Source of the DNA: Acidipropionibacterium jensenii DSM 20535
GTDB lineage: Bacteria > Actinomycetota > Actinomycetes > Propionibacteriales > Propionibacteriaceae
DNA length: 52,601 nt
Direction of reading: 5' to 3'
NCBI RefSeq assembly: GCF_000425285.1
Contig: NZ_AUDD01000019.1
Coordinates: forward strand, 1-52,601
Position 1 is the stretch's first letter, and each line of letters opens with the position of its first letter. Shown in pieces: positions 45,847-52,601 of the stretch. The position numbers were made by a program, and so were the translations under genes. The notes under the pieces were generated by a model. That model worked only from the letters and a program-made list of their open reading frames with translations. It searched no databases and had not been told where the DNA came from.

Positions 45847-46980
45847 ATGTCGGTACAAATTCCTGAAACCATGCGCGCCGCTGTGCTGCGGAGCATCGAC
45901 AAGGGGTTGGAGGTGCAGACCATCCGGACCCCCCACCCGAAGGCCAGCGAGGTACTCGTCAAGGTCAGCGGATGCGGTCTGTGCCACTCCGACCTGCACG
46001 TGATCAGCGGGGCGATCGCCTTCCCGCTGCCCGCGGTGCTCGGCCACGAGGTGGCCGGCGAGATCGTCGAGGTCGGCCCCGGCAATGAGCACAATGCACT
46101 GGAGGTGGGACAGCGGGTGGCCGGCGCCTTCCTGATGCCCTGCGGCCAGTGCGAGGCCTGTTCCGAGGGACGCGACGACCTGTGCGCCCCGTTCTTCGAC
46201 CTCAACCGCATCCAGGGCAAGCTCTACGACGGCACCACCCGGCTGGCCGATCTGGACGGCACCCCGATCGCGATGTACTCGATGGGCGGCCTGGCGCAGT
46301 ACTGCGTCATCCCCTCCACCTCCGTGACACCGGTCCCCGACGCCATCGACCCGGTCTCCGGGGCCATCCTCGGCTGCGCGGCGATGACCGCCTACGGTGC
46401 GGTGCGCCGCGGCGCCGACCTGCGCTTCGGCGAGACGGTGGCGGTGGTCGCCACCGGCGGGGTGGGCTCCAACATCATCCAGATCTCCAAGGCCTTCGGA
46501 GCCAAGCAGATCATCGCCATCGACGTTGCCGACGACAAGCTGCAGGCCGCCCGCGCTCTGGGCGCCACCGACGTCGTCAACTCGATGACCGCCAATGTCC
46601 ACGACGCCGTGTTCGCCGCCACCGGCGGCCGCGGGGTCGACGTCGCCTTCGAGGCCCTGGGCCGCCCGCAGACCTGGGCCTCGGCCCTCGACGCGCTGCG
46701 CGACGGCGGCCGGATGGTCCCGATCGGGCTGGGTGCCGGGGTGCAGACCGCCGAGGTCGAGATCAACCGGACGGTGCGCCGCTCCCAGTCGATCCTGGGC
46801 AACTACGGCGCCCGGACCCGCCAGGACCTGCCCGAGGTGGTGCGGATGGCGGCCGCCGGAGCGATCAACTACCAGGAGATCGTCACCCGCCGGTTCTCCC
46901 TGGATGACGTCGCCCAGGGGTACGACCTGCTGCGGCAGGGCCACATCCAGGGCCGTGGAGTGGTCGACATGTCGCTCTGA
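45847..46980 (+). CDS. Zinc-dependent alcohol dehydrogenase
   Basis: A 377-residue medium-chain dehydrogenase. The catalytic zinc site is CGLCHSDLH with GHEVAGEIVEVG (His-Glu). The structural zinc site is a four-Cys lobe with MPCGQCEACSEGRDDLC (about 95-111). The nucleotide-binding Gly motif is VATGGVGSNIIQ (about 198-209). The overall form resembles Zn alcohol dehydrogenases active on simple alcohols or polyols; the substrate is unknown. The start chosen, ATG 45847, has AAGGAC at 7-nt spacing; ATG 45832 is 15 bp upstream. It diverges from the iolE-like gene. Confidence 0.88.
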   Translation: MSVQIPETMRAAVLRSIDKGLEVQTIRTPHPKASEVLVKVSGCGLCHSDLHVISGAIAFPLPAVLGHEVAGEIVEVGPGNEHNALEVGQRVAGAFLMPCGQCEACSEGRDDLCAPFFDLNRIQGKLYDGTTRLADLDGTPIAMYSMGGLAQYCVIPSTSVTPVPDAIDPVSGAILGCAAMTAYGAVRRGADLRFGETVAVVATGGVGSNIIQISKAFGAKQIIAIDVADDKLQAARALGATDVVNSMTANVHDAVFAATGGRGVDVAFEALGRPQTWASALDALRDGGRMVPIGLGAGVQTAEVEINRTVRRSQSILGNYGARTRQDLPEVVRMAAAGAINYQEIVTRRFSLDDVAQGYDLLRQGHIQGRGVVDMSL

Positions 46981-47315
46981 CCTCCTCGATGAGGGGTCCA
47001 CGGTCCAGCGGTGTGACCACCCGATGAGCCGTGCTGCCGGCACGATGCCGGCCGTGCGGATACTGGGAGCGGGATCGGCGTCGGGAGCGGGATCGGCGCC
47101 GGATCCCGGGACACGCTCAGGGCGATGACCGCAGCCGGGGCATGGGTTCGGTCGGGGCCATCAACACGCTCAGGGCACCGATCCCTGGGGTGTCCCCAAA
47201 GAGGGGATGGCGGCTCGCCAGGAGTGCCCATACGGTGGTGGCATGTCCGCACCTGGACCCGCACCTCGGATCGGCCACCCGATCCAACGCTCGTGGGGCC
47301 CGTGACGTGAGGTCC
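46981..47315. other. Region upstream of the histidine kinase with short repeats and operator
   Basis: No gene is seen. An 18-bp tandem duplication (47065-47082, 47083-47100), a 13-bp direct repeat ACACGCTCAGGGC (47111 and 47164) and the shared inverted repeat (47191-47210) are present. Confidence 0.6.
47191..47210. promoter_or_regulatory. Shared inverted repeat, copy 1, before the histidine kinase
   Basis: TGTCCCC-AAAG-AGGGGATGG lies 125 bp before the kinase start. Related copies precede the two other genes of the locus at 50097 and 51193. Confidence 0.65.
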
Positions 47316-49643
47316 ATGTCCTGGAGCCCGCTGCGGTGGGTGTCGCGTCCAGTGACCCCGCACCTGGACCGCACGGCCGATGTCATCGGCTGTTTCATGA
47401 ATGGCCTGGGTCTGCTCTGGGGAATCGGCGCCACCGGATTCCAGTGGTTCCACCACCAGTTGACGCCGCGCGACGGCGTCATCGTCGCCACCCTGCTGCC
47501 CCTCACCGCGATCACGACGGGATGGATCGCGACCGCGGTCGTCCGGAGGTGCAGCGCCCGCGTTCCCCTGGTGGTGCACACCGCGGTGTGCTTCCTCTCG
47601 GTGCTGGTCTTCCTGGGGTTCTGGGAGGCCTCCCCGGGGCAGTTCCTCTCCCCGATGACCTTCGCCGTCGAGCTCGGTGCCGCCGCGGCCTGGACCTGCC
47701 TCACCTGGCCGGTGGCCGTCGTCGACCAGCTGTTCACGGTGAGTCTCGGCGGCGTGGTGATGGCCCGGACCGGGGCGGTGGGCCAGATCGAGGCCGTCGT
47801 CCTCAATATCGGCAACTCGGCCTACTACGGTGCGATCGGGCTGGTGGCGACGATGGCGTGGACCGCCATCGTCTCGGCCGTCCAGATGGCCCAGCGCGCC
47901 AGCGACAGCTCCGCGGCAGCGGTCTCCCAGCTCGTCACTGCCCAGGAGGCCGCCGCGGCGTCGAGTCGGTGGGACGGCGTCATCCACGATCACGTGCTCA
48001 ACGCCCTGGCCACGGTGGCCCATCCGGGACTGGTCTGCGAGCAGGCCGCCCGGACACTGTCGCGCGAGGCTCTTGACGCCCTCAGTCAGGACCAGATCCA
48101 TCCCCCGGCGAGGGGCCTGTCCGCAAGACTGGTCGACGCCGCCCGGTTGCGCGGACTGGACGCCGACATCGACATCACCGGGGAACCGCCGTCGTCGATC
48201 GTCGGCGTTCTGGGACGAGCTGCCGAGGAGGCGCTCACCAACATCTCCCGACATGCCGGGACGGCGTCTGTGCGGGTGACAGGGCGGTTCACGCCGGAAC
48301 ATGCCGAACTCGTCATCAGGGACGACGGATGCGGATTCGACCCCGACCGGGTGCCCGATACCCGGCACGGCCTGCGGGGATCGATCGTCAGCGCGATGGA
48401 GGTCAGAGGGGGCCGGGCCCGGATCGACTCGGCCCGGGGCCGGGGCACGACCATCACCCTGCTGTGGGACGATCCCCGAACCGAACCGGTTCATCTGGCG
48501 CGGTTCTGGTCCTTCCGCGCGATGGTCGTCTTTCTGGCTCAGGCCCTGGCCATCAGCCTGTTTCTCGGCTGGTTCGTGAGCGAGGACGTCATCGAGACCA
48601 GAGTGCAGATCGGGTTGACGGTCGTGCTCATCGGCCTCGTGGTCGCCGCCTTCTGCTGGGGTCCACTCGGTCGCAACGCCAAGGTCGTCATCACGGTGCT
48701 GACGGTGTGCTGCCAGGTCGCGATGCTCGGGAATCTGCGCACCGGCACGGTCCAGTCCTGGCAGGAGTGGTTCATCGGATTCGGGCTGGGAGTGTTCGCC
48801 CCCCTCGCATGGCGGACCATGAGGAGATCCTGGGCGGTCGTGGTGGTGGCGAGCTGGCCGGTGGTGACAGTGGTCGGCACCCTGATCAACGGGGCGAGTC
48901 CCTTCTGGGTGATGCTGAGCAGGGGAAGCTCCTACACCTGGCCGTTGACCCTCACCATCGCCGCGGCCTGGGCGGGACGCAGCATGAGGAGCTCCCTGCG
49001 CGAGATCGCTCACAGCCACCAGGCGACCCTCGACACCCTCCGACGACGGGCCCGCGCCGATGCCACCCGACACGAGACCGAGCGGCGGCTGGCCACCATC
49101 AAGGGGGCGCCGATGGAGATGCTCGACTACCTGGCCTGCGGAGGAGCGATCACCGGATCGGTGAAGCAGCAGTGCAGCCTGTTGGAGGCCTCCACCCGCG
49201 ACCTCCTGGTGGCCCCCTTCATCCTCGACCACACCATGCAGGCCCAGTTCCAGCGGGCCCGACGCCGGGGAACCCGGGTCACCATCACCGGCGGCGAGGC
49301 GATCGAGGATGCGTCCCTGGACGCCGCCCAGGCCTTCCGGCGGGCCTGCGCGATCCTGGCGGAGGTGGCCGGAGCCGGCCAGCGGCTCACCTGCCGCTGG
49401 CATCCCGGCGCCGAGGGGGACGCCGCCACCGTGGCGCTGGTCAGTGAGAACGGTGCGACGGTCGGTGACGTCGTCGACTCCACGGGCGAGCAGGGTGGGC
49501 AGTCCTGGCGGCAGACCGTTCTCGCACGGCTTCGGGACGCCACCGGGAGGAGCACGCCGGGCACGGCGGGCACGGCGAGCCCGGTGCCCATCGAGATCAT
49601 CGACGCCGATGGGGATCTCCTGGTCCTGATCGGCGCCGTATGA
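47316..49643 (+). CDS. Double-module sensor histidine kinase (NarL/DesK type)
   Basis: A 775-residue membrane kinase. Module 1 has about five hydrophobic segments (20-195), an H-box with His224 in DGVIHDHVLNALATVAH, an N-box EEALTNISRHA, the G1 box RDDGCGFDP and G2 RHGLRGS, so it should be active. Module 2 (about 395-770) has further hydrophobic segments (400-555) and a cytoplasmic part with a helical SHQATLDTLRRRARADATRHE stretch. It lacks recognisable N- and G-boxes, so it looks like a degenerate kinase copy. Start ATG 47316 follows GTGAGG. The partner is probably the regulator at 51304. Confidence 0.82.
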   Translation: MSWSPLRWVSRPVTPHLDRTADVIGCFMNGLGLLWGIGATGFQWFHHQLTPRDGVIVATLLPLTAITTGWIATAVVRRCSARVPLVVHTAVCFLSVLVFLGFWEASPGQFLSPMTFAVELGAAAAWTCLTWPVAVVDQLFTVSLGGVVMARTGAVGQIEAVVLNIGNSAYYGAIGLVATMAWTAIVSAVQMAQRASDSSAAAVSQLVTAQEAAAASSRWDGVIHDHVLNALATVAHPGLVCEQAARTLSREALDALSQDQIHPPARGLSARLVDAARLRGLDADIDITGEPPSSIVGVLGRAAEEALTNISRHAGTASVRVTGRFTPEHAELVIRDDGCGFDPDRVPDTRHGLRGSIVSAMEVRGGRARIDSARGRGTTITLLWDDPRTEPVHLARFWSFRAMVVFLAQALAISLFLGWFVSEDVIETRVQIGLTVVLIGLVVAAFCWGPLGRNAKVVITVLTVCCQVAMLGNLRTGTVQSWQEWFIGFGLGVFAPLAWRTMRRSWAVVVVASWPVVTVVGTLINGASPFWVMLSRGSSYTWPLTLTIAAAWAGRSMRSSLREIAHSHQATLDTLRRRARADATRHETERRLATIKGAPMEMLDYLACGGAITGSVKQQCSLLEASTRDLLVAPFILDHTMQAQFQRARRRGTRVTITGGEAIEDASLDAAQAFRRACAILAEVAGAGQRLTCRWHPGAEGDAATVALVSENGATVGDVVDSTGEQGGQSWRQTVLARLRDATGRSTPGTAGTASPVPIEIIDADGDLLVLIGAV

Positions 49644-49653
49644 CGGCCGGGTC

Positions 49654-49890
49654 TCACAGGATCGTGCTGGCCACGAGGATCCCGGCAATGATGTCGACGA
49701 CTCCCAGAACCATCCAGCCGGTTGATCTCACGCTCAGGCTGCTGGCCTTGCCCGCCTGCCAGATCACCAGAACTCCGAAGACCGGGCCCGCCAGCAGGAA
49801 CCCGGTCACCGCGAGGATGCCCGCGTTGCGCCTGTGCTGGAGCCCCTCGCTCCGCTGAGCCGATCTCCTTGGGACAGTTCCTTGGAACAC
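49654..49890 (-). CDS. Small two-helix membrane protein
   Basis: A 78-residue protein with a basic, polar N-terminus (VFQGTVPRRSAQRSE) and two hydrophobic segments, GILAVTGFLLAGPVFGVLVI and GWMVLGVVDIIAGILVASTI, joined by a short polar loop with Lys/Ser/Arg. I chose GTG 49890 because a GGAG site lies 8 nt upstream; another in-frame GTG lies at 49917. No family recognised. It is convergent with the kinase and diverges from the anchored protein, sharing the intergenic region with the inverted repeat at 50097. Confidence 0.6.
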   Translation of the reverse strand: MFQGTVPRRSAQRSEGLQHRRNAGILAVTGFLLAGPVFGVLVIWQAGKASSLSVRSTGWMVLGVVDIIAGILVASTIL

Positions 49891-50096
49891 TGGTGATTCT
49901 CCATCTCCTGTGCACACCTGTCGGGGAGAGGATCCTGAACCCGAGGTGATTCCCGGAGAATCGGTCGAGTTATGATGTCAGGCGTCAATCGCCAGCCCCC
50001 GTGAAAAGGGTATGAATTGAGGGGATCCGTGGTCCAGAGACCATCCGTCCCCGATCCCGGGTACACGAGAAACAGGCGCACAGGCTTCTCCCGATC

Positions 50097-50117
50097 TGTC
50101 CCCTCAACAGGGGATGG
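50097..50117. promoter_or_regulatory. Shared inverted repeat, copy 2, before the membrane-anchored protein
   Basis: TGTCCCC-TCAAC-AGGGGATGG lies 54 bp before the start at 50151. A half-site-like CCATCCGTCCCC lies at 50041-50052. Confidence 0.65.
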
Positions 50118-50150
50118 TCGGGGGTGGGCACACCTCAGTAGCCTCGCCTC

Positions 50151-51146
50151 ATGTCGTCATATCGCCCCGCAGCCAGATTCGTTCCTGCGCCGGGTTGGCC
50201 GGCGTCACCGGAGCCGGGATATCTTCCCCCATTGGGCTGGATTCCTGACCCACAATGGCCGGATCCCCCGAAGGGATGGGTGTTCTATGTCGACAGTGCC
50301 GGACACCCGGCCGCACCGCCCGCAGGGGCATGGGTGCCTGCTCCTGGACGCACCCCGCTGCGAGAGAGGATCGGGCGCAGGTGGCTGGTCGCAGCCGGCG
50401 TCGGGGTGGTGGTTCTCGCACTGGCGCTCGGCGGCGGGTTCTGGTGGCTGAACAGGCAACCCACGATGGCTCCCGACGAGGCGGGCAACGTCTTCTCACC
50501 AGCGATCATGGGTCTCACCAACAACTCGTACTACGGCAGCATCGACGGCAATGGCCAGTACTCCGGTGACGAGGTCAGGGCGAACCTGAGTCGGACAAAG
50601 TTTCACGGCGACGCCCTCAACTCCTGCATCAGTGCTGTCAAGCAGAAGATGACTCATGTGGACATGCTGCAAGTGCTCGCATCATCTCAGCGGCCGACTG
50701 ATCATTATCTGTTCGGACCGGCCTGGGGTCATTCTCAGTCGAGAACCGTACTGGGTGCAGTACTCGCATTCGACTCGCCACGAGATGCGGAGGACGCCCT
50801 CGGCGATCTGGACTACTGGAAACCGTGTCTCACGATGAACACCGCGCAGAACAACTCCGGGGCGACCGATGAGACCCATGACCAGGGCAGGAAGAACGGG
50901 GCCGACTGGGTAGCTCTCGAGATGCGGACGACATTCTCCACCAATGGTGATGCACTGCCCACCGAGGGCTCGAGCTCCTCCTCTGGACTGGCGACAGGAG
51001 GGTGCCTCGTACGTTATGGAAATACCATCACTCTGGCGGCCAGGAAGGCCGAGGACAAGGGCGGCGCCGGCTCGCCATCGCTGTCCGACATCGACTGCGC
51101 CGGGTTCGCGCAGAGGGTCAGCAGTCGCATCGACCACCTGGCCTGA
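50151..51146 (+). CDS. Membrane-anchored protein of unknown function
   Basis: A 331-residue protein with a Pro/Trp-rich cytoplasmic N-terminus (about 1-70; PGYLPPLGWIPDPQWPDPPKGW resembles DUF2510-like PGWYPDP repeats). It has one hydrophobic segment (about 78-100) and an extracytoplasmic domain. The exterior part has two or three Cys pairs (around NSCISAVK, WKPCLTMN and GGCLVRYG) and a Ser-rich loop (GSSSSSGLATG). No enzymatic motif is visible. It lies between the kinase and the response regulator and has copy 2 of the inverted repeat upstream. Confidence 0.65.
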   Translation: MSSYRPAARFVPAPGWPASPEPGYLPPLGWIPDPQWPDPPKGWVFYVDSAGHPAAPPAGAWVPAPGRTPLRERIGRRWLVAAGVGVVVLALALGGGFWWLNRQPTMAPDEAGNVFSPAIMGLTNNSYYGSIDGNGQYSGDEVRANLSRTKFHGDALNSCISAVKQKMTHVDMLQVLASSQRPTDHYLFGPAWGHSQSRTVLGAVLAFDSPRDAEDALGDLDYWKPCLTMNTAQNNSGATDETHDQGRKNGADWVALEMRTTFSTNGDALPTEGSSSSSGLATGGCLVRYGNTITLAARKAEDKGGAGSPSLSDIDCAGFAQRVSSRIDHLA

Positions 51147-51185
51147 CAGACCCGCGTCACTCACGCCGCGCCGTACCGGCGGGGT

Positions 51186-51219
51186 CCGGACCTGTCCCCT
51201 GTTCAGGGGACAGGTCCGG
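51186..51219. promoter_or_regulatory. Shared inverted repeat, copy 3, before the response regulator
   Basis: A perfect 16-bp stem (51186-51201 with 51204-51219) with a TT centre contains TGTCCCC-TGTTC-AGGGGACAGG (51193-51214). It is 40 bp beyond the stop of the anchored-protein gene and 85-118 bp before the regulator start, so it may also end the former transcript. Confidence 0.75.
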
Positions 51220-51303
51220 CATCTCCCCTTGCCCGGCACGACCGGAGTGACCACTTTTCGCTCACTGCCACCGAGCGTTACCGTGTCGTGTCACCATGCT
51301 GGC

Positions 51304-52035
51304 GTGACAAGCATGATGCACGCTGATAACGGACCGTCTGCTGCTCGCCGTTCGGCCGCCGCGCCGTCGAGCAAGCCCCCGACCGGCTGTGAGCATTCGC
51401 TTGTCCTGGCTGCCGTCGACGACGTCCCGGTCCTGCTCGAGGGGGTGCGCGTCGTCCTGGCGACACGGATGCCGATCGCCGACTACACCTGCGCGGCCAC
51501 CGTCGACGAGCTGCTGGCCAGCGGCATCCGACCCGACGTCGTGCTGCTCGACATCCGTCTCAACGACGGCTCCCTGCCGCACCAGAACGTCACCCGGATC
51601 GTGAGGGATCTCGGTGCGCCGGTGCTGATGTTCTCCCAGGAGGCGCAGCCCAGCGTTCTGCAGGCCTGTCTTGCTGCCGGTGCGGCCGGGATGCTGGAGA
51701 AGAACGCCGACGCCGACACCCTCGCCGAGGCGGTGGCCACCGTCGCCGGTGGCGAGCCCTGGCTGTCCCAGGAGTGGGCCCAGGTGGTGTCCGACCCGAC
51801 CTGGATCATGCCGCACCTGGCAGAACGCGAGCAGGAGGCACTCAGGCTCTTCGCGGCCGGACTGAAGGCCGCCACCATCGCCCGCAGGATGGGCGTCCAG
51901 GGTGACACCGTCGGAACCTGGCTCAAGCGCATCCGGGGCAAGTACATCGCGGCGGGCAGGCCCGCCCCGACCCGGACCGATCTGTACATCAGGGCAGTGG
52001 AGGACGGGTACTGCGAGGGCCCCCAGCCTCACTGA
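51304..52035 (+). CDS. Two-component response regulator, LuxR type
   Basis: A 243-residue DNA-binding regulator. The receiver domain (about 31-150) has acidic residues at LAAVDDVPVLLEG, phosphoacceptor Asp83 in VVLLDIRLNDG, and the switch lysine in GMLEKNAD. The LuxR-type HTH (about 165-215) includes LAEREQEALRLFAAGLKAATIARRMGV and TWLKRIRGKY. Start is uncertain: GTG 51304 or ATG 51313/51316; none has a strong ribosome site. Copy 3 of the shared inverted repeat lies upstream, consistent with autoregulation. Confidence 0.85.
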   Translation: MTSMMHADNGPSAARRSAAAPSSKPPTGCEHSLVLAAVDDVPVLLEGVRVVLATRMPIADYTCAATVDELLASGIRPDVVLLDIRLNDGSLPHQNVTRIVRDLGAPVLMFSQEAQPSVLQACLAAGAAGMLEKNADADTLAEAVATVAGGEPWLSQEWAQVVSDPTWIMPHLAEREQEALRLFAAGLKAATIARRMGVQGDTVGTWLKRIRGKYIAAGRPAPTRTDLYIRAVEDGYCEGPQPH

Positions 52036-52169: not shown

Positions 52170-52601
52170 TTAGTGCCCCGCATCGGACTCGATCGCGTTG
52201 ATGATGGCGCGGGCCTCGGGTGTGGTCTGGGGCTTGATGGTGTGAAGCGAGCCGTTGATCTCCAGGGTCGCTGAGCGTAGTGGGGCGAGGGTATGGACGA
52301 TCCGTTTGACCGACAGGCCGGTGACCTGTCGTAGGTAACGCGAGACTGCCAGGGCGGCGAATGCCGTGGTCAGGTGGGCCTCGATGGAGTCAGAGAGCCG
52401 GTGGAAGATGGGCCGGGCCCGCAGGTCGGACTTGGCCATGCGGAAGGAGTCCTCGACGTGCCAGAGGTCGTGGTAGGCCCCGATCACCTGGACCGGAGTC
52501 ATCACCGATACTGGAATATTGGTCACGTATCCCTTCAACCCGACCAGTTGGCGGGCCCGGTCGATCGCCTTGTGATCCAAGGACAAGCCGTTCGCCGATG
52601 C
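52170..52601 (-). CDS. IS1634-family transposase, C-terminal part (cut by window edge)
   Basis: The minus strand is open from the right edge and gives 143 residues ending IINAIESDAGH. The segment YHDLWHVEDSFRMAKSDLRARPIFH is typical of IS1634 (IS1549-like) transposases and includes a catalytic-type Glu; the following SIEAHLTTAFAALAVSRYL helix fits the family. The N-terminal part is outside the window, so an intact or broken state cannot be judged. No inverted repeat was identified in the 134 bp before it. Confidence 0.85.
   Translation of the reverse strand, partial: ASANGLSLDHKAIDRARQLVGLKGYVTNIPVSVMTPVQVIGAYHDLWHVEDSFRMAKSDLRARPIFHRLSDSIEAHLTTAFAALAVSRYLRQVTGLSVKRIVHTLAPLRSATLEINGSLHTIKPQTTPEARAIINAIESDAGH

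Follow-up and report, generated by a model that had tools for sequence, protein, structure and literature searches.

Why does one inverted repeat stand before three genes of the same small two-component locus? The question arises in a stretch of 52,601 nucleotides from Acidipropionibacterium jensenii DSM 20535 (the window; contig NZ_AUDD01000019.1, here contig C18 of G000, a genome of 3.03 Mb in 56 contigs). A first-pass annotation, made from the sequence alone, had noted the repeat upstream of genes for a histidine kinase, a membrane-anchored protein, and a response regulator, and had favored a protein-binding operator over terminators. We followed the repeat through five Acidipropionibacterium genomes (G000 to G004, with G000 the genome of the window) and 112 others of the same family. 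The repeats are very probably an operator for a DNA-binding protein.

The repeat as a 20-bp dyad

The pattern TGTCCCC-N(3,7)-AGGGGA occurs in the window at 47191-47207, 50097-50114, and 51193-51210, the last on both strands. From shuffles 0.04 matches would be expected, and four matches were reached in none of 100. The whole 3.03-Mb genome holds eight strand matches at seven places, three of them within this 4-kb stretch, and no match to a version of the pattern with reversed arms. The longer form proposed in the annotation, TGTCCCC, 4 to 5 nucleotides, and AGGGGAYRG, is present at all three sites, with the third ending at 51213 and not at 51214.

Across the five genus genomes, TGTCCCC-N-GGGGACA with spacers of 0 to 12 is found at 19 places, and the spacer is 6 in 15 of them. 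Outside TGT...ACA, pairing extends by only 0 to 3 bases in 16 of 17 non-redundant dyads (spacers 3 to 8), the exception being the third window copy, which has 7 extra paired flanking bases. Since pairing stops at the dyad edges, the unit is a 20-bp dyad with a sharp boundary, TGTCCCC-N6-GGGGACA, and such an element would suit a protein dimer better than an RNA stem.

We scored dyads by the number of matching arm bases out of 14 and gave their positions as the distance from the dyad center to the start codon. As annotated, the copies precede the kinase, anchored-protein, and regulator genes. Copy 3 (51193..51212, no strand assigned, like the other dyads) is a perfect 14/14 with spacer 6, centered 101.5 bp before the GTG at 51304. 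Copy 2 (50097..50116) scores 12/14 with spacer 6 and is centered 44.5 bp before the ATG at 50151; a weaker second dyad, CGTCCCCGATCCCGGGTACA (50046..50065, 12/14), lies 51.0 bp upstream of it. Copy 1 (47191..47209), centered 116.0 nt before the ATG at 47316 of the kinase gene, scores 12/14 with a spacer of 5 and the right arm GGGGATG; it is degraded, with one base lost.

The element is concentrated in the genus. The five genomes hold 15 exact spacer-6 dyads (3, 4, 0, 3, and 5 in G000 to G004) and the 112 others together hold 8, and the control that we used for all such counts, the same pattern with reversed arms, has no exact match across the 117. With up to two mismatches, there are 36, 32, 25, and 21 dyads in G000, G001, G003, and G004, against 3, 8, 8, and 2 in the control. 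Because the control yields 2 to 22 matches per genome at this tolerance, the two-mismatch scans were not taken as a regulon list.

Two relatives of the dyad lie elsewhere in the genus. In two species, a spacer-5 form flanks the start of a gene that we named, by eye, as a HAD-like hydrolase (G000:C1:165451-165469 and G003:C3:250888-250906). An identical one-mismatch dyad with near-identical surroundings occurs at G000:C13:22576 and G003:C21:9500, possibly in a shared mobile region.

Position before regulator and kinase genes

The response regulator (51304..52035, plus strand, GTG start) has a receiver domain (Pfam Response_reg, 37.9 bits against a cut-off of 30.2) and a C-terminal LuxR-type helix-turn-helix (GerE, 26.0 bits against 23.5), an architecture that makes it NarL/LuxR-type. 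D82, in LLDIRLND, is invariant in 5/5 aligned rows and is presumably the phospho-acceptor aspartate of the receiver domain. A dyad lies upstream of the regulator in four of the five genus genomes, at almost the same place: its center is 101.5 bp before the orthologous start in the window, 102.5 bp in G003, and 103.5 bp in both G002 and G001. The arms of these dyads agree at 10 to 14 of 14 positions, and the roughly 70 bp between dyad and proposed promoter show an identity of 0.52 to 0.64, against 0.59 to 0.61 for shuffles. The G001 copy, TGTCACCCATCCGGGTGACG, scores 11/14 and is a symmetric variant, TGTCACC...GGTGACG, in which six of seven pairs are symmetric. Given this fixed position before the regulator in related bacteria, the repeats most probably serve to dock a regulatory protein and do not mark gene ends.

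Directly before the start codon, at -12 to -7, all six genus regulator upstreams carry a NANNNT box; in the window it reads CACCAT (51292..51297, plus strand), the proposed -10 box of a leaderless regulator gene. These boxes are consistent with leaderless regulator transcripts. In Propionibacterium acnes, leaderless mRNAs are common, GUG starts make up 29%, and the -10 consensus is TAnnnT (PMC3848588). The box TAGCCT (50139..50144, plus strand), proposed as the -10 element of a leaderless anchored-protein gene, fits that consensus (PMC3848588).

The kinase gene, HK1 (47316..49643, plus strand, start codon uncertain), encodes an H-box, HDHVLN, and one recognizable HATPase domain (HATPase_c, 38.4 bits against a Pfam cut-off of 26.4). 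Four core motifs align in seven kinases: HDxVL, ALxN (EEALTN in the window), RDxGxGF, and a GLxxS-type motif. We take them to be the H-box, the N-box, and ATP-binding elements. HK1 lies beside an alcohol dehydrogenase gene, as does its ortholog in G001. That ortholog has a 13/14 dyad, TGTCCCTCAAAAGGGGGACA, upstream, with its center 114.5 bp from the codon that aligns with the window ATG. Compared with this dyad, window copy 1 is short of one spacer base and altered at its right edge. In the genus that we call g11, kinase homologs of G014 and G143 (29 and 33% identity in the part that matched) have 13/14 dyads 96.5 and 95.5 bp before their called starts.

A shared operator thus finds support from position and sequence across species at the regulator and kinase genes; before the anchored-protein gene the evidence comes from the window genome, and the site there is a candidate. 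The annotated reading as a whole is partly supported. Is HK1 then the partner of the regulator, as the annotation assumed? This is not supported, since HK1 is a paralog. In G001, G002, and G003, a different kinase follows the regulator; its gene appears broken in G002, where it falls into two frames, and in G003, where a stop lies in frame, but not in G001. For the two G004 regulator paralogs, the 16-kb stretch around each holds no kinase match. In the window, what lies between the regulator and the contig end is the 3' portion of a transposase gene of the IS1634 family (52170..52586, minus strand; NCBIfam NF033559, above cut-off). The one other kinase match in this assembly at an E value of 1e-20 or below is a 3' half at C11:129-1226, which is what survives here of the usual downstream kinase. 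By eye, this half adjoins a transposase tail (G000:C11:1-1226). We also considered that species with broken kinases lose the regulon; G003 does not bear this out. A further idea, that the second half of HK1 (48500-49640, past a second membrane region) is a degenerate copy of the first, is not claimed, as the two halves compared with hhalign give an E value of 0.016 but a probability of 2.8%.

Beyond the genus, the dyad goes with one lineage of the regulator. The nearest g11 homologs, of G014 (45% identity) and G143 (44%), have dyads of 12/14 and 13/14 located 51.5 and 52.5 bp before the proposed regulator start codons, and the g8 regulators of G197 and G199 (44 to 45%) have two dyads each. Dyad pairs 54.5 to 59 bp apart precede the regulators of G143, G197, and G199 and a sortase gene of G143. 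Our set for association and tree held 42 homologs; eight distant ones (L021-L028) were left out, and these have no dyad of 12/14 or better. With 310 bp scanned upstream, dyads are found before 8 of 16 homologs of at least 43% identity, a cut chosen post hoc with the data already seen, and before 1 of 26 below it (Fisher p 0.0008); 57 of 8,400 shuffled upstreams pass the same score. In the tree, a clade of 25 more distant homologs (support 99/99) carries no dyad. The dyad label requires five changes, a number as low in 10 of 500 label shuffles; the row of the one passing homolog below 43%, from G025, entered this tree without a dyad label. In g11, the two regulator-bearing genomes hold 10 and 2 dyads when one mismatch is tolerated; four of the eleven others hold 1, 1, 0, and 0.

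Regulators of genera g31 and g6 (L162, L163, L164, L165, and L166) are preceded by related dyads, a C run paired with a G run, at similar distances within each genus; perhaps these are a drifted operator. In G143, three successive dyads stand before the sortase gene (L158:45-144), their centers 56 and 23 bp apart.

Placement in genomes and competing explanations

By a simple gene caller, 11 of the 15 exact genus dyads lie outside called genes and 4 inside; against 25% non-coding sequence by the same caller, the binomial probability is about 1e-4. The caller finds 75% of the window to be coding and overlooked the anchored-protein gene, and because it under-calls in this way the intergenic counts are approximate. 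For two G004 dyads, the assignment to a place upstream of genes relies solely on open reading frames (ORFs) and Pfam matches; by the caller alone, one of the two would fall between two gene ends. Six of the 15 lie upstream of genes with no stop nearby, and the G002 dyad, which is outside this exact set, lies between divergently transcribed genes. Five lie within 50 nt behind a stop: window copy 3 (46 nt), one in G001 (5 nt), one in G004 (38 nt), and two in G003 (3 and 8 nt). Four of these five also have a co-oriented gene downstream; the G003 dyad at 8 nt is between convergent genes, beside a T-rich stretch. With these five, a terminator role is possible for some dyads. The annotation had named genome-wide matches mainly at 3' ends as the outcome that would speak against an operator; a third of the exact dyads are near stops, which is neither a majority nor nothing.

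Which genes would such an operator serve? Pfam matches behind the G004 dyads are to a CHAP-domain protein, a secreted-type protein with carboxypeptidase-regulatory-like domains, and Cas6, and behind a G003 dyad to an L,D-transpeptidase with SH3 domains. A gene for a von Willebrand-domain protein follows a one-mismatch dyad in both the window genome and G003 (the former copy was the one scanned with Pfam), and in g11 dyads also precede a sortase gene (Pfam match). An NlpC/P60-like match in the window genome fell below the Pfam cut-off. By eye, we added dTDP-rhamnose genes (one-mismatch dyad), a fructose phosphotransferase system gene, and an MFS/LysR pair in G001, and a TetR/YbaK pair in G004. 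The list gives the impression of a possible cell-envelope regulon, and it also contains genes that do not fit one. The Cas6 dyad of G004 is at L132:6372-6391, and a further exact dyad (L033:15550-15569) stands before an unidentified four-gene operon that points towards a regulator paralog.

These observations can be joined into a mechanism. The operator TGTCCCC-N6-GGGGACA would be bound by a dimeric DNA-binding protein, most likely the NarL/LuxR-type regulator after phosphorylation by a membrane kinase. The regulator would occupy one site some 102 bp ahead of its own proposed leaderless promoter and another some 115 bp ahead of the kinase gene, as an autoregulated two-component system with candidate sites at both promoters. 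At the putative promoter of the anchored-protein gene it would sit at -44.5, where an activator would contact RNA polymerase; the predicted effect is activation and not repression. Dyads before secreted or peptidoglycan-related genes elsewhere in the genus would extend its reach to a cell-envelope regulon. That the repeats are a protein operator is a strong reading; the identity of the binder we infer, and the two together, operator and regulator 51304-52035 as its binder, seem to us probable with room for doubt. The widest version is tentative, somewhat short of even: a two-component system in several genera of the Propionibacteriaceae that reads the 20-bp dyad (in pairs 51 to 59 bp apart at some promoters) and controls its own regulator and kinase and an envelope regulon of sortase, L,D-transpeptidase, CHAP-domain and other secreted proteins, and rhamnose genes.

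Several results weigh against this picture. G002, which lacks exact dyads altogether, shows no enrichment in the two-mismatch scan either (27 dyads, with 22 for the control). Neither of the two regulator paralogs in G004 has an upstream dyad. No dyad of 12/14 or better lies in the 14 kb surrounding the G001 homolog of the anchored protein. Three of the four dyads inside genes are deep in ORFs, with the fourth 47 nt past a called start, and the five close behind stops belong on the same side. Outside the genus, the G078 homolog lacks an upstream dyad at 58% identity, as do five homologs of g31 and g6 at 43 to 47%, and the single passing homolog below 43%, that of G025, stands at 37% on a very long branch. 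The identity cut being post hoc is a further weakness, as is the fact that related species are non-independent samples in these comparisons. Finally, the predicted recognition helices differ between genera with the same dyad, TWLKRIRxKY in g1 and EYLLRARKKY or MYLLRVRSKY in g11 and g8, which sits uneasily with this regulator as the reader of the dyad.

This last point speaks for an outside factor, another transcription factor whose operator is the dyad and which controls the two-component system together with other genes. Three genomes with exact dyads, G011, G075, and G103, are absent from the 23 that gave a regulator match at an E value of 1e-33 or below, and some of their dyads are, by eye, near secreted-protein genes. 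Such a factor would leave the concentration of dyads in genomes with this regulator lineage unaccounted for, and we regard it as unlikely, though of some weight. A TetR protein was the one alternative binder tested: a dyad variant, TGTCCCCAAAAA(A/T)GGTGACA, precedes orthologous TetR genes in G014 (L151) and G143 (L154). It was rejected as the binder; the protein has no match at an E value of 1e-6 or below in the five Acidipropionibacterium genomes, and G092, where no dyad appears even when one mismatch is tolerated, does have it (64%).

Could the repeats instead be RNA hairpins, terminators and nothing else? Copy 3 forms a 15-bp hairpin (51186..51219, plus strand) about 40 nt past the anchored-protein stop at 51146, with a folding z-score of -5.9 against shuffles, and copy 2 also folds well (-3.2). 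The annotation had placed two copies after stop codons; of the three, copy 3 follows a stop closely, the others being 210 nt beyond the dehydrogenase stop (copy 1) and 453 nt beyond the kinase stop (copy 2). Copy 1 folds no better than shuffles (-0.25), the copy 3 hairpin has no T tract, and we found no terminator-like site, a G+C-rich stem followed by a T run, in 46900-51450. Terminators would have no reason to keep a fixed distance to the start downstream, to favor a spacer of 6, to end at a sharp 20-bp edge, or to lie between divergent genes. We therefore rejected termination as the main role, in line with the earlier preference for protein binding at the shared arms, and consider it quite improbable as the sole one. 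For copy 3 the idea is kept: its hairpin close behind a stop makes a second role possible, as terminator of the anchored-protein gene as well as operator of the regulator, and it is alone among the 17 dyads in its long stem. Set against this dual role are the missing T tract and the retention of the dyad, with no long stem, at the same place in G003, G002, and G001; it is doubtful, with a real chance of being right. An interspersed palindromic repeat, or chance, we think close to negligible. The four dyads inside genes could be expected of either, and two G004 copies resemble each other, by eye, for about 60 bp downstream; the other flanks appear unrelated, reversed arms are absent from all 117 genomes, and the positions are fixed to one gene.

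The neighboring proteins and known systems

The remaining members of the proposed system are the anchored protein and a small membrane protein. The anchored protein (50151..51146, plus strand) is predicted to have a single membrane helix, and its extracellular part has no Pfam match; its structure model, at a mean pLDDT of 38.9, was unusable. The ORF for the small membrane protein (49654..49917, minus strand) has no family match among Pfam and NCBIfam models. It had been counted as part of the system, and beyond a shared intergenic region nothing ties it to the dyad, and its membership finds no support.

If our reading is correct, it supplies an operator and a candidate regulon for an uncharacterized sensor system in dairy and industrial propionibacteria, and links a sensor to surface proteins. 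The natural variants, with missing dyads, interrupted kinases, and altered recognition helices, make the evolution of an operator approachable. Full-text literature searches found no description of this two-component system or of the dyad motif.

How does the locus compare with systems already described? The best NCBIfam match of the regulator is MctR, of the MctR/MctS pair, at 63.1 bits, and the third is MadR, of MadR/MadS, at 46.5 bits; since both are far below the 300-bit cut-off, the regulator is a member of neither family. The consensus for MacR, the regulator of MacRS in Streptomyces coelicolor, is TGAGTAC-N2-GTACTCA, which differs from our dyad in arms and in spacing, and the NCBIfam MacS model gives 25.4 bits here against a cut-off of 300. 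MacRS (SCO2120/2121) resembles the present system in combining a NarL-type regulator with a kinase; it has a validated binding consensus, and membrane proteins and lipoproteins are among its direct targets (PMC9739842, PMC10345050). The pqs locus of P. acnes (PPA0945/PPA0947), from the family to which the window also belongs, is a two-component locus with at least one leaderless transcript (PMC3848588). There, the kinase and regulator genes are divergent and a signal peptide gene has been proposed.

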